NCBI RefSeq assembly: GCF_021917145.1
Contig: NC_061066.1
Coordinates: forward strand, 186,001-250,000
Origin: Hypomesus transpacificus
Lineage: Eukaryota > Chordata > Actinopteri > Osmeriformes > Osmeridae
Length of the DNA: 64,000 nt
Direction of reading: 5' to 3'
Shown: positions 300 through 53,699 of the stretch, piece by piece
How the letters are laid out: each line of letters starts with the position of its first letter
How positions within the stretch are numbered: position 1 is the stretch's first letter
Notes under the pieces: generated by a model
Seen by the model: only the letters and a program-made list of their open reading frames with translations
What the model was told of the DNA's origin: nothing
Databases searched by the model: none
Translations under genes and position numbers: made by a program

Positions 300-612
300 T
301 TGGTTAGTTGTAACTGATTTAGCTACTTGTAGTCGCTGTTAATTATATTTTTGTTTCTTGCTTTCCTCCAGGTACACTGTAGACACTTTCGAGGATCATA
401 TTGTTGAATTGTAACTTGTTTGACTACATACTCTTCTGGTTCTACCCATTGGCACTTACAGTATTTGCTTTTCACAATGTATGTTTAATGTTTTGGCTAC
501 CCACATTGTTTTTGGGGCTTTCTCGTTGTTTACGATCATTGACCTATGCACGTTTTGCTCTTTCTTGTAAGTCGCTTTGGATAAAAGCGTCTGCTAAATG
601 ACTAAATGTAAA
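300..612 (+). repeat. LINE2/UnaL2-type 3' end (SINE/LINE tail)
   Basis: The right end carries the tail AAGTCGCTTTGGATAAAAGC followed by GTCTGCTAAATGACTAAATG and a short TGTAAATG repeat. This tail is shared by L2-clade LINEs and the tRNA-SINEs they mobilise in teleosts. The sequence just before it (GACCTATGCAC) is also found beside the copy at 9.0-9.2 kb, so both derive from the same element family. The left boundary is approximate. Confidence 0.6.
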
Positions 613-10432: not shown

Positions 10433-10902
10433 TTTTCGAAAACTTGTTATCCTTTCCCAAAATCTTGGGACGTTATCTACTCTACCTGTGTCCCGCCGCT
10501 GTCGCTAACAGCAGAGCAATTTGGTAAGTGTTGATACCATTAATGTAAGTGATATCAGCTCTCTATAAGCTATGCATACACCCCAGGCACTTAAACGCGA
10601 CACATTGACCCATAAAGTCTATTAGTTAAGTGCAGTTGGTGGTATAACCCTCTAGCATTTAACTTTTCAAACATTTGCGCTCAAATGTTGCAGTAGGCCT
10701 AAACGCGTAATAATCGCATGCCGTCACAAGTGTTGGCCATGCAATCAAACACTTGAGGCTAAATTAGCACACATATACGATTATAAAACGGCCATTTTAT
10801 TTTGATTTAACTCAAATTAATTAAATAAACAAACGACTTTCCCCTCAGCTGATGCCATATGACATCCGCTTTGATCAAGGGTGTCGAGGGCCCTCTGACT
10901 TC

Positions 10903-11425
10903 TCATCTCTTGCCGATTCCATGAGGGTCTGTTGTTGCTCTGCCTGCTTTCTCGTCTCCGCCTGACTGCATCTCATGGCTCAGGTTTATAAGGGCACAGA
11001 TACTAAGCTTGCAGCCATTGACTCTTGATACCCTCCTGACAAGAGAAAATATTTTTTTATGAGATAAAGCACCAATGCAGACAACCAAACTGCTGATTGT
11101 AAGTCATTCCATTACTTACCGAAGATCGGGAAAAGGCTGTTTCATCGGTGTACTGGATATGAATGAAGACATTTGGTAAATAAGGGTAGAGAACATCATT
11201 TATCACTGTCCCATATTTAGATATTAGATGAATGCTTACGGCATTGTCATGTTGCCATCTGATTCTGTACCATTCCAGCTCTGCACACCCGTCCTGTAGT
11301 GGTACAAGCGGTAAGTAAGGGAACTCAAACTCTCCACCATCTCCCTCTTCTCAAGACATGATCTATCTAACGACACTCACGTGACGTTAAACTCTTTGTC
11401 ATTCCTCTGTTGCGAACTGTCTAAC
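10903..11425 (-). CDS. second peptide-coding exon set of the same putative peptide gene (alternative 3' exons)
   Basis: Four exons: 11425-11381 (45 nt), 11293-11240 (54 nt), 11152-11120 (33 nt) and 11035-10903. All begin with one base that completes a codon and (except the last) end with two spare bases, so they fit directly onto the exon ending at 12967. The full form would be 190 residues. The encoded segment runs through NVTTGVQSWNGTESDGNMTM to PFPDLRRVSRVNGCKLSIC, then ALINLSHEM and ends DPHGIGKR-stop. The dibasic site before the ring, the C-x4-C ring, the NLSH stretch (as in adrenomedullin-2) and the Gly-Lys-Arg amidation signal all fit a secreted calcitonin-family hormone. It is clearly paralogous to the exon at 12083-12221 (GDE-AG-T-DP-GIGK in both). 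No separate signal-peptide exon was found between 11.43 and 12.08 kb, so shared 5' exons are likely. It has its own poly(A) signal at 10801-10796. Confidence 0.5.
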
Positions 11426-12082
11426 CTGTGAAGAGACAGATAAGGATATCAGAAAAACTGGACGCATTGATATTGTAACATGAAGCGCCGGATATTCACA
11501 TGAAGGAAAACGGCAATATAGTAGCTGAAATTGTAAAACAGATATTTCTAAGCATCACAAGATCTGTCCTTCATGATCAAACTGTCTTGTAAGGTCAAAT
11601 TGAAAGCATACATTAAAATTAATTTGAATAATGGGAACAAAAATTTGTTTAAATGCTTGTTTAATAGTCACATCTTCTTGAATCAGGTATGTTCATAATT
11701 TGAACAGCAGTCATTAATGCCACCAATTCTGGTTTGTATTAGTTGTTTTTATTGGTCAACATTTAGAGTGAAGAATACTAAATAGTATTGTAAAAAGTAT
11801 AGTAAATGTATATAATGCTTTATCTTTGACTTATTGTACAGCACTTTGTTGTCATTGGTTATGTTTAAATGCATAACAGAAATAAATTTGATTTTCATGT
11901 CTCGAGGAGTTAATCAGAAGGTGCCTTTCTATTATGGGCCATCCATTACAACATTACAAATCAAGAATCAGCATGCATGTCCGACATGTTTTATCCGGTT
12001 GAATCCATTGTGATTATTACAATGTTTACACCATAAAGCTGTGTGCTATCTGGTCTGAGCACTTAATATTTCAAATCAGCTC

Positions 12083-13311
12083 TTATTTCTTCCCTATCCC
12101 CTGAGGATCTCTAGTAGAGCTGCCTGCTATCTCATCCCCTATCTGCAAGGAGGAGCCCAGGATGGCAGTCATACAGGTGGGCAGGTAGCATAGGTTGGGG
12201 GATGAGGCCCCGGTAAGCGTTCTGAAGAAAAATGTAACAAGAGTTGGAGACGTAAAGGCCTCCGTGGGTTTAGATATGAAACAGGTCACATGCATAATAA
12301 TATTGAAATTGTTTTGTTTTTAGTATTATTAAATGTTTATTGTTGTTGCAGCATTCATTGGTTAAAAAAGTTGTGTAAACTAAGAAATTCTTACAACACT
12401 GGTGGGTCTGGTGATTCTTCCCTTAAAAAGATTTTGAAAAGTATTTTTAACATGACTAGTAAGTTATACAACATGTTATATCTTAAAAATATGTATTTTC
12501 CCATAAGGTTTCCCAAAGTTTCATACCATGTTGGAACCAAATGCTGGGTTGGGAGGATCATTCTGTAAAGAAATTTAAAACAACAAGAACATGTTATAAG
12601 CGGTATAAAAAAACATGCTCTGTCTAGATCATTGGATGGACATCTGTATTATTCTTACTGAAAGGGAGAGATTCCTGTGTCATTACTCCCAACAAATCTG
12701 GAAAGGCAAAGCATGTTTTATTATATCAACTATTTTTATGATACTTTTTCCGAACAAAGATTCCTGTTCTTTTCAAAACTTTTAAAATTGCTGTATAAAA
12801 ATGTTAATTTATAAAAGTATGTAAATGTTTTTTTAATTATGTATATATATATATATATCACTGTTTTGAGAACGTGTGCCTAATTTGTTGAAATACTAAA
12901 GCTTAAATTGCTAGAATAGTGACAACGTTTTTACAACGTTCATATTTTCATAAAGCCAAAACTTACTCTGTCGAGTTGTCCAGTGTATAGTTTAGTTGAA
13001 CAAGGGTCTCATTTTGTCTGAAAAAAAGGTACGTTTGTTCATTTTTAAACCTCTGACAGTTCTCTATAATTTCCGATGAAGTCTTCCCTTGTGCAAGCCA
13101 TGTTATGGAAATTAAATATGGAACTAACATAGGCATATTGTACGACAGACCATCACTAATCTCTAACAATAACACTTTATTTCCATGCACACCTCTGGTA
13201 AAAGATGTTTAGGCATTGGTCTACTTCTTACCTGGTGCTGTTGTGAAAGTTGATGGGCATTCCAAAGACATAGCCAAGGAGAAACACACTGAGTGACCAG
13301 GTGGGGCCCAT
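12083..13311 (-). CDS. calcitonin/adrenomedullin-like peptide precursor, peptide-1 splice form (putative)
   Basis: Five exons by splice signals and phase: 13311-13232 (ATG, signal peptide MGPTWSLSVFLLGYVFG), 13194-12967, 12562-12527, 12421-12395 and 12221-12083. Together they give 169 residues. Every intron has the same phase (two bases before, one after), including those around the 36- and 27-nt micro-exons. The pro-region has N-glycosylation sites (NET, NYT, NST). The last exon encodes LCYLPTCMTAIL..., a C-x4-C ring, and ends DPQGIGKK-stop, a Gly-Lys-Lys amidation signal directly before the stop. A C-x4-C ring followed by a helix and an amidated C-terminus is the hallmark of CGRP, amylin and adrenomedullins; the CYL ring and the PQG end recall adrenomedullin-5 and adrenomedullin. 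A poly(A) signal lies at 11753-11748. I do not recognise the pro-region. The exon chain is inference; the family call is moderate. Confidence 0.5.
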
Positions 13312-13985
13312 AATGTCCTCACTAAGGCCCAAGGATGGAGGAATGAGAGGAGGTAGGCAGTTTCAACCCCACAGGCTGACTCAGTTAGAATACCTTTTAT
13401 ACTCTGCACCTACTCCATAACATTTGTACAGTGAGAAGATGTAGAACTGTGCAGTGTTTATCCCCAGTCAACTGAAGGACACGGAAGAGAAGGACACACT
13501 CACTCAACGTGAAGAGTGATGAGGCTAGTCCAATGTTGTTTAAATATTTGCTCATTTACAACATCTGTGTCTCTGAACTGCCTGTTATTTTCGAGGTCAG
13601 TGTGGAATCATGGGAACCAGTCTGCCTCAAGTTCATCAGCGGGCTTTGGATGGTTTTGTACTTGAATGTTATTACAGTTTGGGAACTGTCCTTGGTGTGT
13701 CCCTACCTTGTTTGCTGCTGGCAATACTTATCTTGTATGGACATATTGGCCTTTGTTCTTGTGCCACACTGGATGGAAAGCTGTAAAAGCTTTTAAAAGA
13801 TCATCTATTTTCTAGAGAGAAACTTGCATATGGAGCTCCATTGGCACAGACTTGCTACATTTTAGTCATGTTTCGGATAATGAGCTACTCTTCCCCCAAG
13901 GCTAGACAGGCTACAAATAATAATTAGCACCATGACTTTAAAATCAACATGACTATGTCATGTATATAGGCCTATATATATTGTT
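13312..13985. other. intergenic, no gene supported
   Basis: Unique AT-rich sequence between the peptide gene and a SINE. A 95-codon open frame on the plus strand (13509-13796) has no recognisable domain or splice context and is not called. Confidence 0.5.
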
Positions 13986-14181
13986 ATTTACATTTACATT
14001 TAGTCATTTAGCAGACGCTCTTATCCAGAGCGACTTACAGTAAGTACAGGGACATTCCCCCCGAGGCAAGTAGGGTGAAGTGCCTTGCCCAAGGACACAA
14101 CCTCATGGTGTGGCCGGGAATCGAACTGGCGACCTTTAGATTACTAGCCCGACTCCCTCACCGCTCAGCCACCTGACTCCC
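13986..14181 (-). repeat. tRNA-derived SINE with L2-type tail
   Basis: On the minus strand it starts GGGAGTCAGGTGGCTGAGCG (tRNA A-box, Ser/Leu type) and has a B-box AGTTCGATTCCC. It then contains CCTTGGGCAAGGCACTTCAC and ends with the GTCGCTCTGGATAAGAGCGT tail and TAAATG repeat. Full-length, with clear similarity to the copies at 34.6 and 47.1 kb. Confidence 0.85.
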
Positions 14182-30300: not shown

Positions 30301-31813
30301 TACACAACGGCTCATTTCACCACGAACCTGTTACCTGAGACGTTAAAAGTGCAAGCAGATGCATTACATCTCACCTTCTGAAAATAGCCTCTTTTGACAG
30401 AAGTGTCCTTGACTTGTCTGAAGTACACGTAACCATAGAAATGAGCCAGCTCTCTCTATGAGACAAAAATATTAAATTAACATTATGGCAAGAGCTGCTA
30501 GTAACAACTAGTATCGAGTAACATCACAACATGCAAAGGTCTGGGTGGAGACTTGGGTAGAGAAACTGGGAGACTGGGATGTTGGAGAGACTGAGAGAAT
30601 GGGGAGGCTGGGAGGGTGGAGAGACTGGAGGGTGGAGAGACTGGGAAGGTGGGTAGGCTGGGATGGTGGAGAGACTGGAGGGTGGAGAGACTGGAGGGTG
30701 GAGAGACTGGAGGGTGGAGAGACTGGGAAGGTGGGTAGGCTGGGATGGTGGAGAGACTGGAGGGTGGAGAGACTGGGAAGGTGGGTAGGCTGGGATGGTG
30801 GAGAGACTGGAGGGTGGAGAGACTGGGAAGGTGGGTAGGCTGGGATGGTGGAGAGACTGGAGGGTGGAGAGACTGGAGGGTGGAGAGACTGGAGGGTGGA
30901 GAGACTGGGAAGGTGGGTAAGCTGGGAGGAGTGACATCACCTGTAGTGTGACAGGTGCATCCCTGTTGTATGCATCCTCTCCAAACCAGGACCCGCTGCG
31001 ACCCACGGACTGGCGTAGCCTGAAGCTGAACTGGGTGTCTCCAAGGCATCCTTGGAAATATGGCAGACATCAGTTGACCACCCAGCCAAGAAACAAGATC
31101 TCTTGACTATAAGTCTGTGGTTACGCCGTTGTGTAACTGATGTCATGGCTGGCAGTACTGACTACAGGACCACGGAGGGACAGCTATATAATGGATCTAC
31201 TCACCTGAGTAAGAATCGGGGAAGGATAGGTAGCAAATGCTGGTTTTCTGCAAGGCAGGGTAAAATATATGATTTGGAGATTCATAATGGAAGTATCCTT
31301 GCGTAGGTTCAGTACATAGTTACATTATACGGAAAATTCAGGAAACTAGCCTACAACTTGAATCGTACTAAATCTTACCTCCTTCTCGGTTAGTTTCACG
31401 TCCTGTGGATACACCAGCTGAGGGTATCAAAGTGAAAGTGTAACATTCGCATAATAACTGTAACATCACTCTCAACACACTTGACAGCTTGACCGATTAA
31501 GAAACTAGAATGTTTCCCTAAGAGGTTCACGTAGTCCACGCATAGCAATAAGTATTTAGTTAGCCAGCTATATCTAGCGCAGCTATATTTAGCTAGCTAG
31601 CATCACTGCCTGTCTGTAAACAACACCTGTCAAGGTGGATGCTGACCACCGCCGCCGTACCTCAATGGCTTGTCCGAGCTCGAGGTCGAAGGTAACGACG
31701 CAGACACACTCCAGCCACGACGAAAACCGGGCCCATGGCAAACGCGACTCTGCATTTTCTGCTGCATTCTCCGTCTCAGTTTGTTGAGATTCAGAGTTGT
31801 CAAATGGGTCCAT
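27364..31813 (-). CDS. dennd6b: DENN domain-containing protein 6B
   Basis: Twenty coding exons with canonical splice sites give 576 residues (human 585). From the 5' end: 31813-31661, 31417-31379, 31247-31205, 31050-30941, 30455-30375, 30245-30140, 30053-29974, 29879-29817, 29730-29675, 29564-29442, 29320-29225, 29042-28948, 28851-28786, 28688-28624, 28509-28420, 28332-28279, 28170-28061, 27936-27834, 27710-27636, 27486-27364. [60 protein letters not shown] and [11 protein letters not shown] follow the DENND6 uDENN-cDENN-dDENN order, and details favour 6B over 6A. DENND6 proteins act as guanine nucleotide exchange factors for Rab14 on recycling endosomes. The fourth intron carries a minisatellite. 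The gene is head to head with lta4h. Confidence 0.93.
30545..30930. repeat. minisatellite in dennd6b intron 4
   Basis: Tandem 14-15 bp units (GGGTGGAGAGACTGGA) with a longer variant containing AAGGTGGGTAGGCTGGGAT repeated about five times. It lies directly downstream of the donor of the exon 31050-30941. Long open frames on both strands through it are products of the repeat. Confidence 0.9.
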
Positions 31814-33970: not shown

Positions 33971-36900
33971 AGGTATCTGTCCCCAAGGAGCTGGTTGCAG
34001 TCATGAGTGCTGTTCGTGACGGTCAGGTCCCTGACCCCCAGGATAACAGCAGAGTCATCTACCGCTTCAGACAACCAGTCAGTACATACCTCTACCTATC
34101 CCTTACTTCCATTAGGATCTTTCTCTCTTGCATATCAATCTCACTTTCACTCTATCCCACTATTAAAGTGATGGCTGTTCAAGGTACAACTCTGCCAGCT
34201 GATGTAGCAGAGTGACTGTCATTAACCAGACCAGTTATAAACAACATGTAGATTATGAAGAGAAAGTAAGCAAAGCAGCCTGACCTCACAATCTGTTCAT
34301 TGACCCTTGGCCTTTCCCAGGTGCCCATGCCCTCCTATCTCATTGCCATTGTGGTGGGAGCTCTGGAGAGCAGGTACACACCATACATACTCCTACCGAA
34401 TCCACACTTTCAAACTCTGATGCCTCTCTGGATGTGCTTTAAAGAAGTCAAACGAAAGTAAAACGTTTTTTTGTTTTTTTACAACAAGAGAAATTGGCCC
34501 CAGGTCTCGTGTTTGGTCTGAGAAGGAGTTTGTGGACCAAGCAGCTTTTGAGTTCTCTGAGGTTAGTTCTACATGATTTTTGTTACATTACATTTTACAT
34601 TTAGTCATTTAGCAGACGCTCTTATCCAGAACGACTTACAGTAAGTACAGGAACATTCCCCTGAGGCAAGTAGGGTGAAGTGCCTTGCCCAAGGACACAA
34701 CGTCATTTGGTGTGGTGTGGCCGGGAATCGAACTGGCGACCTTTTAGATTACCAGCCCGATTGCCTGACCGTTCAGCCACCTGGCTCCCTGTTGTTCCTT
34801 ATTGCTTGTAGCAATAATTCTGTCAGGTGTGTTTTTTGTTTGTTTCTGATCTGTGTGTGTGTGTGTGTGTGTGTGTAACCCTGACCAGACTGAGACCATG
34901 TTGAAAACAGCAGAGGATTTGGCTGGGCCCTATGTGTGGGGCCATTATGACATCCTGGTCCTGCCCCCTTCCTTCCCCTACGGGGGCATGGAGAACCCCT
35001 GTCTCACCTTCGCCACCCCTACCCTGCTGGTGAGGAACTGAACCACACACACACTTCACCTCAGCTTAATCACCCCATAAAAAGTACCTTGGAAAGTCTG
35101 GTAATGTTTGTTATTGTGTTTATCTTTCAGGCTGGAGACAGATCCTTATCTAATGTAAGTTTGGTGCATTTCATTCTTCAACTGTGTGTGTGTGTTTCCT
35201 TTAAAGTGGTGTCTTTATTTGAGTGTTCCTCCTCTCCAGGTTATAGCCCATGAGATCTCACACAGCTGGACTGGCAACCTCGTGACCAATAAGACCTGGG
35301 AGCACTTCTGGTACGCTACAAACCTCTCTCAGCTGGCAGTCAGTGGTGGATGTGGACTTTGTAGTGTCTTCTTTTGTGTGTCTCATTGAATCGTCAATCT
35401 AAAACAGGCTGAACGAGGGGCACACTGTCTACCTGGAGAGGATGATTGGCAGGTGCATGGAGAGTGAGCAGTTTAGGCAGTTCAAAGCCATCGGGGGCTG
35501 GAAGGACCTGCAGGAAGCAGTAAGTGTCAACACACACGCACAGACGCGTCGTGGTCCAACACGTTCTACACTGTGCTGTTGTGTGTCCGTGTTCGTGAGC
35601 GCCCTGGCCCTCAGTCACCTGTGTGTTCCAGGTGAACACGTTTGGAGCCAACAATCCTCTGACCAACCTGGTGCCTGACCTGAAAGAGGTGGACCCCGAT
35701 GATGCGTTCTCTTCGGTCCCCTACGAGAAGGGCTTTGCGCTCCTTTATCACCTGGAGGAACTCTTGGGCGGGCCGGGTAAGCCCGCACACACACACACAC
35801 ACTGTCCATATTCTTGCAGTTTTAGTTCTCTGATGTCTCAGTGTCTGTGTTTTCTCAGAGGTGTTCATGGCATTCGTCAAGTCCTACATCCAGATGTTCG
35901 CCTACAGCAGTGTCACCACAGAGGAGTGGAAGAACTACCTGTTCACTTACTTCAAGGACAAGGTATTCACCACCTTCCTCACCTCCACACGCTAACAGCC
36001 TCTGTAGGGGACAAGACCTAAACCAGCATGCGTTCTATTCTTTTTTCCCAGGTGGACATTCTGAACAAAGTGGATTGGAACGCTTGGATGCGCACCCCTG
36101 GCATGCCCCCCTTCAAACCACAGTGAGCACACCCTGCTCTACCAGTCCCTGACTGGAATTTCTTGTACAAATCTAACTTAATACAGTTTAAAGTGTTTTT
36201 ATACACCATGTAGGAAATATCCTACATAAAAAATCACCATGTTTGTATCACCAATTCTCAGGTATGACACCACCATGGCTGATGCCTGTGTTTCTCTCTG
36301 CCAGAGATGGGTCAAGGTAAGAAACCTGTGGCCCAGAACCATTAGGTTGATAGAAGTCCTATCTCTGGAGGTTTGTGTTAATCTCACACCCCTCTCTTTT
36401 TCCTTCTCTGTCTAGGCCAAAGAGGGAGATCTGGCTGGTTTCAGTGGTGCAGACTTGAAGATTCTCTCCTCCCACCAACTCATTGAGTTCCTGTCTCTTC
36501 TCCTGCAGGAGGTATGGCCCATTTGTCAATCATCTGATCGCCACAGCAACTGAACATCAACCTTGTAGTACTGTTCAAGACTCTATGCTTAACAGTCCAA
36601 TGAGAATGTGTGGTCCGTCTCTGCAGGAGCTCATCCCCCTGACCCATGTGAAGAGAATGCAGGAAGTGTACAACTTCAACACCTACAACAACTCTGAGAT
36701 CCACTTCAGGTGAGCGACCTCACTGCCCTGGTATCTCCATGGAGACTGTAAGTGTGTGTGTGCCTGTGGGTCTCACGGGGGTGCCCTGCCCTGCAGATGG
36801 CTGCGCCTGTGTGTGAAGTCCAGATGGGAGGAGCAGGTCCCCTTGGCGCTGAAGATGGCGACAGATCAGGGGAGGATGAAGTTCACACGGCCACTCTTCA

Positions 36901-43001: not shown

Positions 43002-44979
43002 CTAACCTGGAGCCCTCTGTGTTCTTCACCAGCAGGCTGAGGTTATGATTGGCCAGCGTCTCCTCTGGAACCTCCTCTGGCTCCTCAGTCAGGTCAGACT
43101 CCAGGCTCCCCAGGGTCACACGGTAGTTCTCCAGCTCAATGCGCTCCGGCGTGCTGCGCACCCGCTTAGCCAGGACTGCCTCCCTCTCTATCAGAGACGC
43201 CACTGGAAACACACACACACATAATCTCACAAATAAATACTTATGCAGTTACTACTGGTTTGCTTTTTTGCTGAAAGTTTTTGACACAAAACAAAAATAA
43301 GCTATATAAAGCTTCACCTGAGGATCTGCGACCATCGGTTATCGCCGTAGTAACAGTAGGGGGACCATCAACGGAGGATGGGAAGGGCAGAGAAGCCAGA
43401 GACCCCTGGGGAGTCAAATCAGAGTCAAATCAGAGAGTCAAATCAGGCCAGCTGTACCCAGCAGCAGTATATATTCATAGTATAACTCTTTGCATCCACA
43501 CGCTAAACCACACCATCCTCTGCACAGACGAACCAGACATCTCTTGAATGCAGTGTTGTTCCAAACAGAGAGCTCCTTACCTGGGAGGTCTGCAGTGTTG
43601 TTCCAAACAGAGAGCTCCTTACCTGGGAGGTCCTCTGGGAGGGAGTTCTCTCTGAGGGTGAGGAGGGGGTGTTGGGGGCAGGCCTCTTTCTCTGGGCAGC
43701 CCCAGACAGGCGAAGGTCATAGTGAGGCTTACAGTAGAACTTCCCTATAAAACCACGTAGAGCCACAGTATTAGAATCTCATACAGAGCATACAGAACAT
43801 CACATCTTAGTGAACGCAGCAGAAATTCTGTTGAACAGATTTACGGATAAACTGATAGTTGATAACACACAAGCCTAGAAAATGACAGCTTAACAACAAT
43901 ATTTTACAGTTCAGCTCCATCTCTTATCACCTATCTTTCCAGGAACAAATAAACACTGAGTGATTTAAAAGAGAGAAATGTCTCACAGAAGGACTCCTCC
44001 ATAGCACACAGCACAAGCTAACTGGATCCCAGGTACGGACGTATACACTTCTATACCCAATGCTCACACTCTGTAGATGTGCTGACATATATACACATCC
44101 TCCCGCCTCATGTTTAAACCCAAGTCATGTGACACCTCATCCCTGATTGGTCGAGCAGTTTAAATAAAACAAACAGAGAGGTTCTTCTCCAAGAGAGAGA
44201 TGTGAACACAAAAACATTGTTATGTAGGATCGTATCTGTGCCTCCTCCCACCCTACACTGACACACATCTCATCTCCACGTGACACAATACAGCTTCTGT
44301 GTTGCTGACACACGCGCACGCGCACACACACACACGCACACACACACAACTTAAGACAGAAAGTCAGCAGTCCAACCAAAAAGCTGGAGGCAAAACGACA
44401 TTCTCAGTTAGCACTGAACCTCAGTGTGTTGAACAAGGTCTCATACAGACACACAAAAGTCTGCTGACACATCTGTCATGTTTGTGGTGATCATGCGATG
44501 TAGCTGTCACTCTCACAGGCACACCAGATGTATCAGTGTCAAGATCAGAGGGATTCTGAGGGGGTCAAGAGTCTATCACACTTCCTTTTAATACTCACTC
44601 ACAACCCAATGGTCTATGGTGCAGGGTCTCTATCTCTCTTCCGTCCTCATAACCTCTCTACAACCTACCAAGTCTCTCTCCCTTCTACTCACTGAAATCT
44701 CCTCCTCGTCGTAAAAGCGCCCCCCCCACCATCTCCTCACCAGTGGGTCTGTCGTAGGCGTAGGAGGCCAGGCGGAGGGTGGAGCTACAGTAGTCACACT
44801 GGAAGCAGCTGCGGTGGAAGAACAGGCCCTCTGCGCTGAGCCGTTCCATCACGTACACGCGGTTCTTACAGAAGAAACACACGTCGCTGGTGCCGCCCGA
44901 CGCAAACACACTCCGCAGGTTCACCTGGTGGAGAGGGAAGGAGAGATTGAAAGAGAGGTAGATGGAGAGATTGAAAGAG

Positions 44980-45010
<31 letters not shown>

Positions 45011-48000
45011 GGGGAGATATAGACCAGTTAGATTTCGGTTTTCTTCTAATACAAGTAAGTGACAGATGGCAAGACGAGACTCTTACCGATTCCCTCCTTC
45101 CTGAAGTAACGGGTTTGGGGGCCTCCTGATTCTGAAGCTGATTGGTTAACTGTTCAGCCCGTGAGCTTACACCCTTTGTGTACATCTGAACGAATTTCTA
45201 TCCCAGGCACCAGCGTGGAGACATGAGGAGTAAGACAGGACAAAAACATACAGCACGTAGAAACACACACACGTTAACACATTTTCAACCACTCATGAGT
45301 GACTTACACAAATAAACACACATCAATGCACTCGTACACAAACCAGACACACATTGTCACAAAGACAATGAAATGACACAAACACATACAGTATCTTATC
45401 TAACATAGATTGTATGCCACAATCAGGCCTTATCTAAAACAAACCCTTTTACAATGTCAGTAATACAATGTTTATTAATGTTTCTCTTACATGAATCCAG
45501 CATAATTTTTGGACAGCAGGAATATTTGGAAACAGAGGAACAACTAAATGCTATTTGTCAATAGAGGCAATTCACTGGGTCTCATGGAGATTTAAACTTA
45601 TTCAAAAGGACAGTTGTAGTGGTTGTCACATGCCACACGCCCTGCAGTAAACTGTACAGATATACACACTGGGAGTCTAGCCAATAAGCACCATGCTATT
45701 CTGTTGAGATAATTTCTCCGACATGATCCCACTCTGGATCACTACTGTACTTCCAATGCAACAGCTATCAGATTTGTTCTAAAATGTGATTTATCTGCTC
45801 AACATTAATGTTTAACATTGACCCCATGCCTTGAACATGAATGCATCCACTGATGCTTAGTATGTGCTTATCTAAGCACACACTCTCTTGATCAGGAACC
45901 ACTTCATGAACACTCCAGACACAAAGCTGTAATGGACTCAGAGTTGGAAAGTAGAAGGTGAATAGATACTAGTGGACTATAGGTCTAGGACTAGCGGACT
46001 ACAGGTCTAGAACGAGGAGACTACAGGTTTAGGACTAAGGGACTACATGTCCAGGACTAGTGGACTACAGGTCTCGGAATAGTGGACTACAGGTTTAGGA
46101 CTATAGGACTACAAGTCTAGGAATAGGGGGACTACAGGTCTAGGACTAGAGGACTACAGGTCTAGGAATAGTGGACTACAGGTCTAGGACTAGAGGACTA
46201 CAGGTCTAGGAATAGGGGGACTACAGGTCTAGGACTAGAGGACTACAGGTCTAGGAATAGGGGGACTACAGGTCTAGGACTAGAGGACTACAGGTCTAGG
46301 AATAGTGGACTACAGGTTTGGGACTAGAGGACTACAGGTCTAGGAATAGTGGACTACAGGTTTGGGACTAGAGGACTACAGGTCTAGGAATAGAGGACTA
46401 CAGGTCTAGGAATAGAGGACTACAGGTCTGGGAATAGTGGACTACAGGTCTAGGACTAGTGGACTACAGGTCTAGGACTAGTGGACTACAGGTCTAGGAC
46501 GAGGGATGGCGTACCTGCTCTCCTCTGCTAGGGAGGGTGTGACACTTGACCTTCTCCTTGTAACGAAAGCTCATCTGCTCCTGCTGCTGCGTACGCTTTT
46601 GGTGAGATGGGGAATGGGTGAGGTGGAAGTTAGGTTACAATGGTAATAGGAGACTACAGTGAGAAAACGACAGTTCAAAAAAACGATATGTAATTATTGT
46701 TTATTGGAGCCTTAGCAGCGTGCTGAGATTGTAGATTTATTTTCCGTCGTGGCAACTAAAATTGGGATTGTACAGTTGTAGTGCCCTCATGTGGCAGCAG
46801 TGGAAGTTCTATAGATGGGAGGGTCAGGGACGGGAGGGGCTGCTGTGTTTACCTGTCTCCATGTGGGGAGGGGCACCACAGGAGTTGGCTGAGACTGGGG
46901 GGCAGGAGATGATATGGGGGCAGGCAGATTGGGCATGGAATCCCCCTGGTGGTTAGTACAAGATGTTAACGCTAAGGAAGTACAGACAGGCGATTGTATT
47001 TGTATTGGAAAATCAAATGCAAATTAATAATAAAGTTTGAATTAATTAATTTGTTCATTAATAACGGGAGTCAGATGGCTGAGCGGTGAGGGAGTCGGGC
47101 TAGTAATCAGAAGGTTGTTGGATCGATTCCCCGCCGAAATGACATTGTGTCCTTGGGCAAGGCACATTTTGCCAAAGATTCAATATTCCTACATTTGTCT
47201 AACCCTCATCAGCACATGACTGTCCAGATCCAGCCTCAAGCCCTGGTCCACATGGAGGATCAGGTCCAGGTCCACATGGAGGATCAGGTCCAGGACCACC
47301 TGGAGGATCAGGTCCAGGACCACCTGGAGGATCAGGTCCAGCTCCAGATTGATCTAGTTCAGGTCCACTTGGAAGATCAACCCCAGGTCCACATGGAGGA
47401 TCAGGTCCAGGTCCACATGGAGGATAGAGTCCAGGTCCACATGGAGGATCAGGTCCAGGTCCACATGGAGGATCAGGTCCAGGTCCACCTGGAGGATCAG
47501 GTCCAGGTCCAGATGGCTCAAGTCCAGGTCTACTCGGAGGATCAAGCCCAGGTCCACATGGAGGATCAAGCCCAGGTCCAGATGAATCGAGCCCAGGTCC
47601 AGATGAATCGAGCCCAAGTTGACGTCCAGACCCAACCTCAGGCTAATGCCCCGGTCCAGGTCCTGACCTAGGCTAATGCTCCAGTCCAGGTCCAGACCCG
47701 GGCCAACACATACACCTGTGTGCCTATGCTGGAGGTATTTGTGCAGGCATTTGTACATATATTTTAGGTGTTAGACGCAATGTAGCAGGATTTGCTTTGT
47801 TCGTGTTGAATATCCATCACTCTGTGTGTATCTAATGCTGTTTCGTCTTCCTCCAGCCTGCTGTGTACATATGGGGCAAGGAGCTATTGACAGCCACTAC
47901 TCTGGCCTCCACTCCGTTGTCTTATCAGAAACAGATGCTGGGAGAGTGTCTGATCACCCTCATTGACAAGGTGCAGCCCAGTCTGGCTCATAAGCTTACT

Positions 48001-50331
48001 GGAATGTTTCTTGAAATGGACAACAATGAGGTGATTCACCTGCTGGAGTCTCCAGAAGCTCTGCACACCAAGGTCCTTAAGGCAGTGGCTAGCCTCCGTG
48101 CACCCAAGATGAACATGGCCACCGCTACTGGCTTGTATGGAGTGCCTGGAAACTGCAGAACCAAGCAGCACATGATCCGTGCCAAGCCCCAGGCGGCTAC
48201 AGAGCAGGTACGTACAGTACAAGCACATGACAACCTACTTTCCACTCTGTTGCTCTTGTGTTCCACACAGCCTGGCTAACTGTCACCCTATCCTCCTCCA
48301 GTCAGCCGTGCTGGGCCAGGAGCCTCTGACGGCCTCCATGCTGGCTGCTGCTCCGTCCCAGGACCAGAAGCAGATGCTGGGAGAGCGTCTTTACTACCTG
48401 ATCCAGGACATCCAGCCCAGCCTGGTGGGAAAGGTCACCGGCATGCTGCTGGAGCTGGATGAGGCTGTGGCTGTGTACAAGGCCTACCTGGCCGAGGAAG
48501 CTGCCAAGAACGCAGTGATCAACACTGCTGATGTCTCAAACATCTAAATCAAGGAATGAGAAACCTGGACTATAAAAAACACGGACTAATGATTAATTCA
48601 GACCAAGAAAAGATAACCTTTGCTTTTTTAATTAATGAAATTATTATGCCATTCCCTCTGGAATTGTGTTATTTTTAAAGGAATGAAATGCTTCTTCATA
48701 ATGAATTTGCTCTCAGGAAATAAAACATATGAAAATGACTTGTGTTATAGTCTTTGTATGACTTCCAGATATGATAGTTACACTAGTTTCACTTTTAACT
48801 AACCACACTTCACATGTGTCGCCGATTCCACTAATATTAAACACTCAATACAAGCTGCTCCAACTTACTAACTGGACTAAGCTCTAACCCTGCTCTGTCC
48901 AACCCAAGCTGCTCTACCCAGAGTTAAGCTTCACCATCACAGCTCCCCTGGTTCTTTCCTGCAGGAGACCAGGATGTGTCCCAAGAGCTAATCTGGCCTT
49001 AACCCCTGCAGCTCTGGAAATGGGATAGTGAGGTGACCTCACCTTCACATACCTGGATGCAAACCAGGATATGTGGTAATAACAGGGGAAGTGGCTGCTG
49101 TGCTGCACACCAATGTTCCCCTGGCTGTGTCAGTTCCCCCCTGGGAGACTCCCCCCACCTTGTCCTCACCTGTCTCAGCAAGGCTGCAGCCGAGGAGGAG
49201 GAGGGGGCGCCGGAGGCGTTTTCCTCAAACTTAGCCAGAAGCTGATTGGCCATCAGGCGCACTCTGGTACGGCTCGCTCCGCCCACAGACCCCGCCTTCA
49301 AAGTTAGGTCGTCGTAGTAACCATCTGCCGCTTCTTCCTGAGAATGTAGAATGTTGATGATGAGTATGACCAGCGCACTATACAGTGTGTAAAAAGGTCA
49401 AGAGACAAGCTCTTCCTCTACCTCCTCATCTGGGCTTGGCCGACTGGTCTTCCTTCTCTTCCCCATCGCATCCTTCTCCTGCCCCTGAGGAAGTGCAGTG
49501 TCATGACATACATAACCAACAGAGGGAGAGAGAGAGGGACAGAAAGAGAGAGAGACATACAGACAGTGTGTGTACCTTGGGGTTGCGTTTGCGTGAGGGA
49601 CTGTGTCCTAGTCTGCTCAGCTGGGAGGCGGGGGTCATCAGGGCAGCCCTGCGTTCTGAGCTCTGACCCAGGGACTCTGGGGACAGACAAGAGTAGTCAA
49701 ACTCAGATTGAAGATACTCTTCTATGTCATTCCTTGTTTCCTTTTCTGATGGTTGTTCCATGAGACCACATGCACGGTTAAAATGTATTACACTACATTT
49801 CAAATGGGCTTTTACTAACACTGAGATTTATACATTTATTACATTGGATTAATTTAGCATATGCTTTCATCAAAAAGTGACAAATAGTGTATACGGAAAA
49901 GTACAGCAGAATATCAAGGATCAAAGTTAAAAACTGTAACAAGGTTCTGTGTTTGCAGGCCTCACCACTGGGTGGCATGGAGTCCTTGAAGAGCTGGTAA
50001 AACTGGCTGAGGTACATGACCATGCAAAGAGTGTCTAGCTCTCCCATAGATGACATCTCCTCCACCGTCATCACTGGAGAGATGCCAAACTCCAGCTCGG
50101 CCACCTCCAAGCCCAACTGAGTGTTCTCCTCCACCTCTGCTTCATCCAGAGACTCAAAGTCACTACAGGTGGAGGCAGAGGTAGAGGCTATAGGTGGAGG
50201 TAGGGACTCAAAGACATCAACTTACAGTGGGATACAGGGAGTTAATGAGACTTACTGATCCTATCAGGTAGTTAAAAGAGCACTAAGCAGAATCTTGGTC
50301 TAAAGCTTAATCATCCTCTTCGAACCCATAT

Positions 50332-50379
<48 letters not shown>

Positions 50380-53300
50380 AGGGCTCGGAGGTGACTCACA
50401 TTAGGTCGGGTCTGTAGTGGTGGATGAGAGCACACAGCGCCAGCCCAGTCTTCCAGGAACTAGTCAGGTCGCTTACGGCAACACCTCGGTAACCCTGGGT
50501 CTGCTGCTGACACCAGCTCAACAGCTTACTGGAGCGAGAGAAGGATTCTGGGAGTAGGAGAGGACAGTCAGGAAGTGGATAGTGAAGGGGGTCACTACTA
50601 GAGGGGAACAATCCTTACTAGGACTGAGTGGGCATGAAGTAAATGGTAGTGAATGGACAGAAGCTCACCTTGTCGTTGTAGTTTGGATAAGGGCGAGCTG
50701 TGGAGATTCTCAATGTCTATATCCACATCTCTGCTGTCTCCTGTGTCTATCAGGTGTTTGACCTGCAGAGGAAATCACATTTAGTTCACCACAGTGTGTC
50801 TTTGTGTGTGTATGTGAATGTCTGTGCTCGTGTATTTCTACCTGTGCAGGGGTGATGAGTTGAGGGTTGATGTTGGGGTAGCGCGTAGCTGGATCCACAG
50901 TGTACAGATTGAAGTTCTTGTTGATGTTCTCTGGGGTTGTCTGGGGAAGAATGCGATACACACTCTCCCTGATAAATAAAGAACAGGATAGACATGAGCT
51001 ATTGCTTGGCATGGTTCAAAGCACATATTTAATGCAACTTCCTAACATACTGTAGGTCTCTATGTTATCAAACCCAGTGGTTTGACTGGTAGTCTGTATG
51101 TGAGGGTTTAGGTTGGTTGAGGGGCAGTTCTATGGGCGTATGTGAAGCCCTCTGTGACATGCTTGCGTGTAAAAAGGGCTATATGATTTGATGATTTGAT
51201 GTGAGACACGCCTTTCTCACCTCTCCGCCAAAACTTCCAAGGGGGCGTGTCCTAGAGCCCAGCTGCGAACCATCCATGCCGAGTCCATCGCTGCCAGGAA
51301 CCCTCGCGCAATCCCAGTCCCCATGGGCCAGAACGGCTACAACACACATACAAACACACACACACGTACACACATACACAGGAAGCTATCACTTTCATGC
51401 ATCATTATCCTCATCTTACCTCCCACCCTCCCCTTCAAACCACTCCCTCCTTCCCTTCCCCCCACTCACCACATTCCCCACACCTCCCCCATCCTGCCTC
51501 CCTCCCTCACCTCCAGCAGGCTGTCTCCCTCCCTCACCTCCCCCATCCTGCCTCCCTCCCTCACCTCCAGCAGGCTGTCTCCCTCCCTCACCTCCCCCAT
51601 CCTGCCTCCCTCCCTCACCTCCAGCAGGCTGTCTCCCTCCCTCACCTCCCCCATCCTGCCTCCCTCCCTCACCTCCAGCAGGCTGTCTCCCTCCCTCACC
51701 TCCCCCATCCTGCCTCCCTCCCTCACCTCCAGCAGGCTGTCTCCCTCCCTCACCTCCCCCATCCTGCCTCCCTCCCTCACCTCCAGCAGGCTGTCTCCCA
51801 CCAGTGTGACCAGCAACTGGTGCCCATGCCTCTGGCGGACCAGTGCTGCGTTCTCTGAAGCGTACATGCAGGTGAAGTCGAACATGGCCACGTCAGGCTG
51901 CCCATAGTGGTTGATGGCAAAGTCCAAGGATGGCAGCTGGTGATTGGTGGAGAAGTTAGCCGCCTCATGAGCATACACCAGCAAGGCCTTCTGGTCTACG
52001 TTCCCTCGGGAAAGAAGCATCTCTGTGTCCGCATAGTCCTATAGACAGACACGACGTGATTCATTATACTACAGTCTGTGAATGGTTATAAACTTATTAT
52101 TAGACAATGAAAATTATGATCAAAGTAGCATCTGCAATCTGAATTTAGTATTGTGAAGTATTGTCATTGTGTTGTCACCTGTAGAATCACTCCTTTTTCT
52201 AGTAGGCTTTGCTTTTTGGCTGTCATCACAAAGTAGTGGGTATCATCCTTATAGTACACAATGTTCTCCAGGTCAATCCCTACGAGTCAGAGAGTCAGAA
52301 CACAGATAATCACCTCATCTTACTGGTTCTCTGTTCTGGTCACTTAGGTTCTCTGGTTCCTGAGATCTGACCTGTGTTGTGTCGCAGCTCCTGGAAGAAC
52401 TTCTGGTTGAAGATGAAGGCCACTCCACTGATCTCTTCCACCTTGGCCTCGGCCGTGGTGTTTCTGTTCATAAAGTTGGCAGTGATGGCAATGGCCAGCT
52501 TCCCTCGGAACTCCTTACGTCTAAAGCCTGTTCGCCCGTGCAGTGAAAAACAGTAAGAAACAGCGAGTTTGTGTATGAGTTTGTGTTTGTGTGAGTGTTT
52601 GAGTGTGCGCATTTACCTGGTAGTGTATTCCGTCGTCCGTCTGCACCGATTATGACGTCAAACTCCAGCTGGTTAACAGGGTGAGATCTAGGATGGACCT
52701 CCATTCTCCATCTCACTTCTGACACACACACACAGTCATATTCAGTAAAGTGGTCAATGCTGTACATATTTTTTATACACACACATCAGATCTTACTCTG
52801 TTTGTGCTGATCTTCAGGTGGCTCCAGCAGCCCCTTGAACTCCACGTTGACATGTACCTCCACCCCCAGGAGCAGAGCCACCTTCAACAGTACCAGCTGC
52901 AGCTGGCGAATACCTAGATAGAGAGAACAAGTGAGACAGAGAGATAAAGAGAGAAAGAGCTAACTCCTTCCGTTGTGTGAGTCTGCACGATAAGCAAAAC
53001 CTCCTGCTGAGTTCAGTAAAGTTCTCCCAGAGCCAACCAGTAACCAAGGAGAGCAAAGGGGTGGTCGATCTGGTTCGGCACTCACTGATGTGGTCAATCG
53101 ATCCAGCGCAGAACTTTCCGTGGAACTTTTTGGCTCCGAGGCCCCTGAGGTCGTGTATGGTGAAAGGCCAGAGGTGGAGAACGTTGTTCCGGGAGAAGGC
53201 GTCTCTCTTCTCCAGCAGCACCACCCGAGCCCCTAGGAAACCCAGCTCCACGGCTGCACGCAGCCCACAGGGGCCCGCTCCGATGATCACACACTGGGAC

Positions 53301-53699
53301 GGTGGAGGGACGGGACAGGGGGACACACAACGATGGACAACTGCCTGATGAGACTCTCAGGAATACAAGCAGAAAGTACAACATCTTCTTGTGTTTGGTG
53401 TGTGGGAGGGTTACCGTGGTGTTGGCACAGGCCCGGCCCTTCATGTATTCCAGGTGAGCTGCTCGCTTGTCTAGTTTGGCCCACAGTGCGTTGGCCCTCC
53501 AGTAGCTGAGGCGGGCTTTGAGTGTGTGGTAGAGAGGCCGAGGCGGGGTGTGTGTGTGAGAGTGTGTGTGTGTGTGTGCGAGCTGTAGGTGCTCACACAA
53601 CTGGCTGAAGGCACGAAGGGTCGCCCTGCATGTGGAAGCCTGAACAAAGTCATCAAACAGAGCATGGGCCCCATTCTCAGGCTCCACCCCGTCTCCCAT
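38471..53699 (-). CDS. mical3: F-actin-methionine sulfoxide oxidase MICAL3
   Basis: Thirty-four exons, about 1869 residues (human 2002): 53699-53415, 53293-53086, 52913-52797, 52718-52617, 52527-52372, 52279-52179, 52038-51781, 51336-51221, 50968-50842, 50762-50669, 50547-50400, 50162-49966, 49676-49576, 49484-49422, 49337-49170, 46945-46853, 46586-46515, 45197-45087, 44924-44741, 43744-43623, 43405-43318, 43202-43007, 42937-42723, 42539-42465, 41915-40677, 40594-40500, 40264-40181, 39938-39888, 39752-39513, 39391-39298, 39199-39149, 39031-38932, 38847-38774, 38655-38471. The order is FAD monooxygenase (GAGPCG at about 100-105, [30 protein letters not shown]), CH domain, LIM domain, acidic region, long Ser/Pro exon, and C-terminal bMERB domain ([17 protein letters not shown]), which binds Rab8-family GTPases. 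The enzyme oxidises actin methionines and severs filaments. The acidic region identifies MICAL3. The start is [10 protein letters not shown] in a strong GCCATGG context. The 72- and 93-nt exons near 46.5-46.9 kb may be alternative. Confidence 0.92.
41919..42165. repeat. (CT)n / CTCTCTGTCT tract at a mical3 acceptor
   Basis: About 245 bp of AG/CT dinucleotides, then AGAGACAG-type units. On the mical3 strand this is an uninterrupted pyrimidine-rich tract ending one base from the AG acceptor of the 1239-nt exon (41915). Confidence 0.92.
43540..43625. repeat. 42-bp tandem duplication over a mical3 exon-donor junction
   Basis: Two near-identical 42-bp units. On the mical3 strand each carries ACCTCCCAG/gtaaggagct, so the donor after 43623 has a second copy after 43581. 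The added 42 nt stay open in frame. Confidence 0.9.
45958..46502. repeat. minisatellite in mical3 intron 17
   Basis: About 25 copies of a 20-23 bp unit (GGACTACAGGTCTAGGAATA). The array starts about 13 bp beyond the donor of the 72-nt exon at 46586-46515. Confidence 0.93.
47066..47175 (+). repeat. partial tRNA-derived SINE
   Basis: GGGAGTCAGATGGCTGAGCG head, ATCGATTCCCC B-box and CCTTGGGCAAGGCAC core of the same family as at 14.0 and 34.6 kb. The L2-type tail is missing. Confidence 0.8.
47222..47645. repeat. 24-bp minisatellite in mical3 intron 15
   Basis: About 15 copies of a 24-bp unit (GGTCCACATGGAGGATCAGG core). Because the period is a multiple of three it yields a repetitive 174-codon frame (VHMEDQVQ type), which is judged not to be a gene. 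Confidence 0.92.
47857..48547 (+). CDS. partial cytoplasmic poly(A)-binding-protein-like C-terminus with two MLLE domains
   Basis: Two exons, 47857-48207 and 48302-48547, with good splice sites (cctccag/CCT, GAGCAG/gtacgt, ctccag/TCAGCC) join in frame and end at a stop. Each encodes an MLLE (PABC) domain, the peptide-binding helix bundle that in PABPC recruits PAM2 proteins such as PAIP1/2 and eRF3. The first has [12 protein letters not shown] and [21 protein letters not shown]. The second has [20 protein letters not shown] and [20 protein letters not shown]; it lacks the roughly 19 residues (normally NSELLHMLESPESLRSKVD) between the two Asp codons. No RNA-recognition motifs are found upstream, where only a SINE and a minisatellite lie, so the copy is 5'-truncated. 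Introns show DNA duplication, not retrocopying. It lies antisense in mical3 intron 15. A poly(A) signal is at 48719-48724. It may be a pseudogene. Confidence 0.6.
50336..50378. repeat. (CA)n microsatellite
   Basis: About 21 CA dinucleotides in a mical3 intron, 22 bp from the donor of the CH-domain exon ending at 50400. Confidence 0.95.
51484..51800. repeat. 54-bp minisatellite carrying six copies of a mical3 splice donor
   Basis: Exact 54-bp period. The element CTCCAGCAGGCTGTCTCCC starts at 51511, 51565, 51619, 51673, 51727 and 51781. On the mical3 strand each copy reads GACAGCCTGCTGGAG/gtgagg. The copy at 51781 is the normal exon end; the other five lie in the intron. Units are open in the mical3 frame (18 codons each). 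Confidence 0.95.

Follow-up and report, generated by a model that had tools for sequence, protein, structure and literature searches.

The peptides of the calcitonin family have a ring, a helix and a C-terminal amide in common, and excerpts of two published accounts (PMC4657274, PMC6283891) describe five adrenomedullins (AMs) in teleosts, arranged in three groups, with the chromosome of AM5 left unidentified. Eight calcitonin-family genes (ADM1A, 1B, 2A, 2B, ADM5, CALCA, CALCB and IAPP) are named for the cichlid A. burtoni in an excerpt of PMC4992253, and the excerpts of PMC13422332 and PMC12714231 held nothing further on the fish gene set of this family. CALCA and the fish genes CGRP1 and CGRP2 have common 5' exons followed by two alternative hormone-coding ends (PMC6283891, in excerpt). 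As far as the excerpts go, it is the CGRP genes, and not the adrenomedullins, in which splicing is described as selecting one of two hormones (PMC4657274, PMC6283891), and a literature search, which reached excerpts of papers and had the founding fish adrenomedullin papers beyond its range, gave no two-ended adrenomedullin gene among the matches listed.

We analysed a 64-kb stretch of DNA (the window) that holds, on its minus strand between 13311 and 10903, a secreted-peptide gene with ten exons: two 5' exons and two successive groups of 3' exons, each group ending in a terminal exon (g1t, g2t) that encodes a peptide (g1, g2). Our preferred reading, to which we give a probability of roughly 0.5, is that of a vertebrate, fish-like adrenomedullin-type gene with a doubled 3' half, in which one start would be joined to either ending. 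Like CALCA, it would have common 5' exons and two alternative hormone ends, which are phase-compatible as predicted from the sequence; unlike CALCA, each end has three micro-exons and g2 is not significantly CGRP-like. The locus falls with teleost AM1 to AM5 in the adrenomedullin branch, but the excerpted descriptions of those five contain no two-ended AM gene. With ADM2/intermedin and ADM it shares a Gly before a C-x4-C ring, a helix start of the form xxLSH/xxLAH and a long tail ending P[HQ]-x-[YI]-G-basic-basic, and g2 aligns with them across the whole C-terminal region. It differs from both in the loss of four or five residues behind the helix, in a micro-exon, sequon-rich pro-region and in the duplicated terminal module. 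The residue ahead of the second cysteine is Ile in g2, whereas it is Thr in g1 and in all four human references (ADM2, ADM, CGRP and IAPP), and g1 and g2 would end in Ile-amide rather than the Tyr or Phe of those references.

Exon structure of the locus

Exons were placed by script, and their splice sites were ranked among 157 AG and 134 GT sites with position weight matrices whose values are approximate. The features, all on the minus strand, are as follows.

13394..13401, minus: TATA box TATAAAAG, from a pattern scan, 90 nt 5' of the ATG
13232..13311, minus: exon 1, with ATG, putative signal peptide MGPTWSLSVFLLGYVFG... and the first sequon; donor rank 1/134; hydrophobic 8-mer 2.49
12967..13017, minus: exon 2, 51 nt, three N-glycosylation sequons, pro-region common to both groups; acceptor rank 6/157, donor rank 7/134
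12659..12697, minus: micro-exon g1a, 39 nt, one sequon; acceptor rank 3/157, donor rank 24/134
12527..12562, minus: micro-exon g1b, 36 nt; acceptor rank 12, donor rank 9
12395..12421, minus: micro-exon g1c, 27 nt, the least certain exon; acceptor rank 51/157, donor rank 17/134
12083..12221, minus: terminal exon g1t, ...NLCYLPTCMTAILGSSLQIGDEIAGSSTRDPQGI-GKK-stop, without a dibasic site ahead of the ring
11748..11753, minus: AATAAA 3' of group 1, weak, motif common in the region
11500..11555, minus: weak candidate first exon of group 2, MLRNICFTISATILPFSF..., 56 nt, phase 2; ATG 11555, donor 11499
11381..11425, minus: micro-exon g2a, 45 nt, one sequon; acceptor rank 2, donor rank 4
11240..11293, minus: micro-exon g2b, 54 nt, two sequons; acceptor rank 9, donor rank 10
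11120..11152, minus: micro-exon g2c, 33 nt; acceptor rank 16, donor rank 2
10903..11035, minus: terminal exon g2t, RR-VSRVNGCKLSICALINLSHEMQSGGDEKAGRATTDPHGI-GKR-stop, predicted adrenomedullin-type peptide
10796..10801, minus: AATAAA 3' of group 2, weak, motif common in the region

Much of this map agrees with a preliminary description of the locus: the scripted placement recovered its exon 1 (13311-13232), its group 2 exons of 45, 54 and 33 nt plus a terminal exon, its single phase at every junction (phase 2 throughout) and the C-x4-C ring and DP[QH]GIGK[KR]-stop of both terminal exons. Its group 1 exons of 36 nt, 27 nt and the terminal exon were also found, together with an in-frame 39-nt exon, g1a at 12697-12659, that it had overlooked; with g1a, each group therefore has three micro-exons and a terminal exon. 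The exon 2 that it had drawn at 13194-12967 keeps its end, but its start is best read as 13017, since the acceptor at 13194 scores 1.95 against 5.85 at 13017 and would imply a 37-nt intron. Strong splice signals at every junction proved an overstatement, given the acceptor at 12421 and the donor at 12659 (ranks 51/157 and 24/134). Each terminal exon is indeed followed by its own AATAAA, at 11753 and 10801, although this is weak evidence because 11 copies of AATAAA or ATTAAA were counted over the 5.5 kb scanned.

Since the ten exons are uniformly in phase 2, all of the joinings considered stay in open frame, namely exons 1 and 2 with group 1, exons 1 and 2 with group 2, exon 1 with group 2, and a chain that omits g1t alone. 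In the six frames of the 64 kb, g1t and g2t are the only two places at which the motif C-x4-C-(15-40)-G[KR][KR] stands in an open frame. Upstream of the exon 2 start, the frame of that exon is open from 13208 and has a hydrophobic in-frame ATG at 13136 (13136-12967, minus; MPMLVPYLISITWLAQG...), where a rarer alternative first exon is possible.

Splice signals compared with chance

A splice-and-frame search blind to the peptide family was compared with dinucleotide shuffles. Over 13420-10780 its best chain was exon 1, exon 2, g2a and g2t, which scored 23.7; none of 100 shuffles was as good, the highest reaching 12.6. When group 2 was searched alone, none of 200 shuffles equalled it in any of six settings, and all four of its exons were returned in four settings, g2b being omitted in the other two. 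The corresponding counts for group 1 were 1, 3, 5, 2, 6 and 7 of 200 shuffles doing as well. The best path through group 1 ended in a spurious exon of 1-4 nt at 12142 in three of the six settings and joined g1a to g1t, skipping g1b and g1c, in the other three; the full set of four exons was returned in none of the six. The splice signals of group 2 are clearly beyond chance, while those of group 1 are marginal.

Relationship of the two peptides to the adrenomedullins

The two peptides were aligned with the human ADM2, ADM, CGRP and IAPP peptides, of which the ADM2, ADM and CGRP sequences were checked. Alignment of g2 gave scores of 61 with ADM2 and 57 with ADM, where shuffles averaged about 20 and none of 2000 reached either score, whether the cysteines and tail were held fixed or left free. 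Its scores with CGRP and IAPP, 20 and 23, were not significant in the shuffle test, and we rejected CGRP or amylin as nearest relatives. For known reference pairs the scores were 30-46 across branches and 85-88 within a branch (ADM with ADM2, 88). Searches of the whole window agreed with this placement. Human ADM2 found g2t as its best match (E 4.2e-4, or 6.2e-4 composition-corrected; the next match 0.098 or weaker), as did human ADM (E 0.002, and 0.002 composition-corrected; the next 0.44 or weaker), and the gene was absent among the matches listed for human CGRP and IAPP.

Profile and structure searches gave fainter signals. Isoform 2, which ends in group 2, fell below the cut-off of Pfam PF00214 (E 0.14, 13.1 bits against 22.3), with a sub-threshold alignment spanning the full length (5-129 to 4-128 of 131), and a chain with all micro-exons gave E 0.23 and 12.4 bits. 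Isoform 1, which ends in group 1, had no match to PF00214, and g2 alone matched nothing in Pfam. In a search of solved structures with g2, ADM2 was the sole match, a weak one (E 1.5). An AlphaFold2 model of g2, built on a two-sequence alignment, places a helix at residues 12-24, directly after the ring; confidence in the model is low (mean pLDDT 60.5, pTM 0.29), with the block 11-20 at 77. Both peptides have two cysteines at C-x4-C spacing, for which a disulfide is predicted. The sequence comparisons support assignment of the group 2 peptide to the adrenomedullin branch of the calcitonin superfamily.

The g1 peptide was scored in the same way. It aligned to g2 with a score of 76, which none of 5000 shuffles matched, and by its sequence group 1 is clearly related to group 2 as a diverged duplicate. 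Its score with ADM was 37, and 9 of 2000 shuffles with cysteines and tail fixed reached the ADM score; its best score with any of the four human references was reached by 79 of 2000. The adrenomedullin likeness of g1 itself is thus marginal. The solved-structure search with g1 found no match, and a Pfam match of this peptide to Nmad2 (E 0.22) was rejected as chance. The protein comparison proposed in the preliminary description, run here with human peptides, accordingly pairs g2 with ADM2 and ADM and not with CGRP or IAPP, and g1 marginally with ADM; the membership of the calcitonin superfamily that it had claimed for the locus holds for group 2, narrowed to the adrenomedullin branch, and in part for group 1, by way of its kinship with g2 and the marginal ADM match.

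Between g1 and g2, 36 codons could be aligned, with a pS of 0.60 and a pN of 0.35. The last 18 codons differ at 8 synonymous and 6 non-synonymous positions (dS 1.38, dN 0.16, Fisher p 0.001), a dN/dS of about 0.12 in a small sample of 18 codons, which argues against a long decay of either g1 or g2. Outside the terminal exons no alignment between the two modules is left, and the introns have diverged while the exons still align. This combination of C-terminal constraint and unalignable flanks fits an old duplication in which selection has acted on both C-termini. Conversion between the copies could add to the C-terminal likeness.

Pro-region and predicted processing

Assuming signal cleavage after residue 17, the pro-region of isoform 2 has seven N-x-S/T sequons where 1.76 are expected (as many in 1 of 20000 shuffles), and that of isoform 1 has five where 1.39 are expected (61 of 20000). 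Four of these lie in exons 1 and 2 and are common to both isoforms. Ahead of the ring, isoform 2 has RR at 88-89, followed by RVSR. Cleavage at RR would give VSRVNGCKLSIC...DPHGI, a peptide of 39 residues, or of 35 if the cut were made after RVSR. A regex scan, which picked out RR but not RVSR in isoform 2, found no dibasic site before the ring of isoform 1, the sole dibasic there being the terminal KK. The Gly-Lys-Lys of g1 and the Gly-Lys-Arg of g2, immediately ahead of their stops, are predicted amidation signals, and both peptides are predicted to end in Ile-amide. The sequon-rich pro-region, the lack of a dibasic site in group 1, the predicted Ile-amide ends and the position between ATP6V1F and SPMIP1 (see below) go beyond the preliminary description.

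A probable single gene with two endings, and the alternatives to it

The arrangement could instead comprise two tandem adrenomedullin-type genes, one made of exons 1 and 2 with group 1, the other of group 2 preceded by a separate promoter and signal exon, which might be 11555-11500. Each module is complete, with three micro-exons, a terminal exon and AATAAA, and in the stretch between the groups, which has 22 ATGs, a single one (11555) starts a 56-nt exon that is hydrophobic and in phase 2, with a 74-nt intron from there to g2a. The candidate is nevertheless weak in comparison with exon 1 (donor 0.55 against 6.89, hydrophobicity 1.90 against 2.49); 28 of 500 shuffles of the inter-group stretch held one as good, and none of 500 held one as good as exon 1. 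The preliminary description had found no separate signal-peptide exon belonging to group 2, a statement to be qualified in view of this candidate, whose presence lowers the odds of a shared start. The pattern TATAWAWR matches 11 times in 14500-9000, yet a scan of the stretch between the two groups found none, and the family-blind search links exon 2 straight to g2a. Given the weakness of the 11555 candidate, the TATA box at 13401 and the lack of one between the groups, we therefore prefer a shared start and regard tandem genes as somewhat unlikely, though a serious rival. A single functional gene of exons 1, 2 and group 2, with group 1 as an ancient exon copy that is decaying or out of use, would suit the weaker splice sites of group 1, its weak ADM similarity and its missing dibasic cleavage site. 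We consider it quite unlikely, as group 1 retains an open frame, a uniform phase, the cysteine pair and GKK, its exons still align with those of group 2 where the introns no longer do, and the C-terminal constraint, though drawn from 18 codons, points the same way.

Whether the gene is an additional one is a separate matter. It may be AM5, or another of the five teleost adrenomedullins, from a diverged lineage, as those five are the reported set, AM5 had no chromosome assigned in the excerpts (PMC4657274, PMC6283891), and such an identity is compatible with the two-ended arrangement. We think this doubtful, because the in-frame translation of a medaka AM5 primer is QLHNLA (thin evidence, from one primer), unlike the LINLSH of g2 or the sequence of g1, and because g2 is closer to AM2, for which a medaka primer gives VQNLSH. 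The preliminary description had called the locus independently organised, which its position between ATP6V1F and SPMIP1 and its micro-exon pro-region fit, but it may be one of the fish adrenomedullins already known, most of all AM5. Least probable, and very improbable in our judgement, is that the locus encodes an unrelated secreted peptide that resembles the calcitonin family by chance; the sub-threshold Pfam match, the lack of a solved-structure match to g1 and the atypical Ile-amide would be in keeping with this, but the shuffle tests and the window-wide searches with ADM2 and ADM argue against it.

For the two-ended gene that we prefer, as in the preliminary description, the uniform phase 2, the well-placed TATA box at 13401 and the absence of TATAWAWR between the groups speak in favor, and the weak candidate at 11555 against. 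Transcription from one TATA promoter would yield two 5' exons encoding a putative signal peptide and the first part of a probably glycosylated pro-region. For the first ending, the group 1 micro-exons would be used and the transcript would stop at g1t; for the second, g1t would be skipped, by itself or along with the other group 1 exons, and the transcript would continue into the micro-exons of group 2 and g2t. Such a choice, if both endings are used, would be likened to that between calcitonin and CGRP in CALCA. Group 2 would give a ring-bearing, presumably disulfide-closed and Ile-amidated peptide, about 39 residues long when released at RR (35 when cut after RVSR). Group 1 would give a related Ile-amidated peptide which, because no dibasic site precedes its ring, might be present in the circulation in a long, glycosylated form. 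Both might act through CLR/RAMP receptors.

A broader proposal, which we advance tentatively, is that this is a sixth adrenomedullin-type gene, located between ATP6V1F and SPMIP1, in which a CALCA-like choice evolved by duplication of a four-exon 3' module and which would have a heavily N-glycosylated pro-region built of micro-exons. Its two peptides would both be Ile-amidated, and one would be made without dibasic cleavage. If true, it would be a second independent case of the hormone switch, in the adrenomedullin branch, and the evolution of such a switch would become testable. It would likewise become testable whether ring-divergent, Ile-amidated peptides act as agonist or blocker at CLR/RAMP in fish fluid and vascular control.

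Genomic surroundings

Flanking genes were identified with Pfam as ARF (E 2e-78), ATP6V1F (ATP-synt_F, 8e-29) and SPMIP1 (7e-34), all on the minus strand, with the adrenomedullin-type gene between the latter two; a further flanking gene with a GRIP domain and coiled coil fits GCC1. ARF5 and GCC1, and likewise ATP6V1F and ATP6V1FNB, are neighbors on human 7q32, a region not known to hold a calcitonin-family gene. Among the matches listed, there was no relevant paper on an adrenomedullin gene beside ATP6V1F or on a sixth adrenomedullin.

A tRNA scan of the window found none, and at the gathering threshold Rfam returned three UnaL2 LINE 3' elements only, at 554-607 (plus), 13998-14051 (minus) and 34599-34652 (minus), the second of them just upstream of the gene. 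Together with the gene content of the window, these elements suggest a teleost. On the plus strand, 47836-48544 encodes an MLLE domain (poly(A)-binding protein C-terminal) followed by a similar-looking open frame at 48176-48544. At about 44691-53356 on the minus strand lie FAD-binding, calponin-homology (sub-threshold) and LIM pieces, in an order that is presumably MICAL-like. Tandem repeats open in several frames occur at 51419-51892 and 30501-31106, beside or within gene regions.
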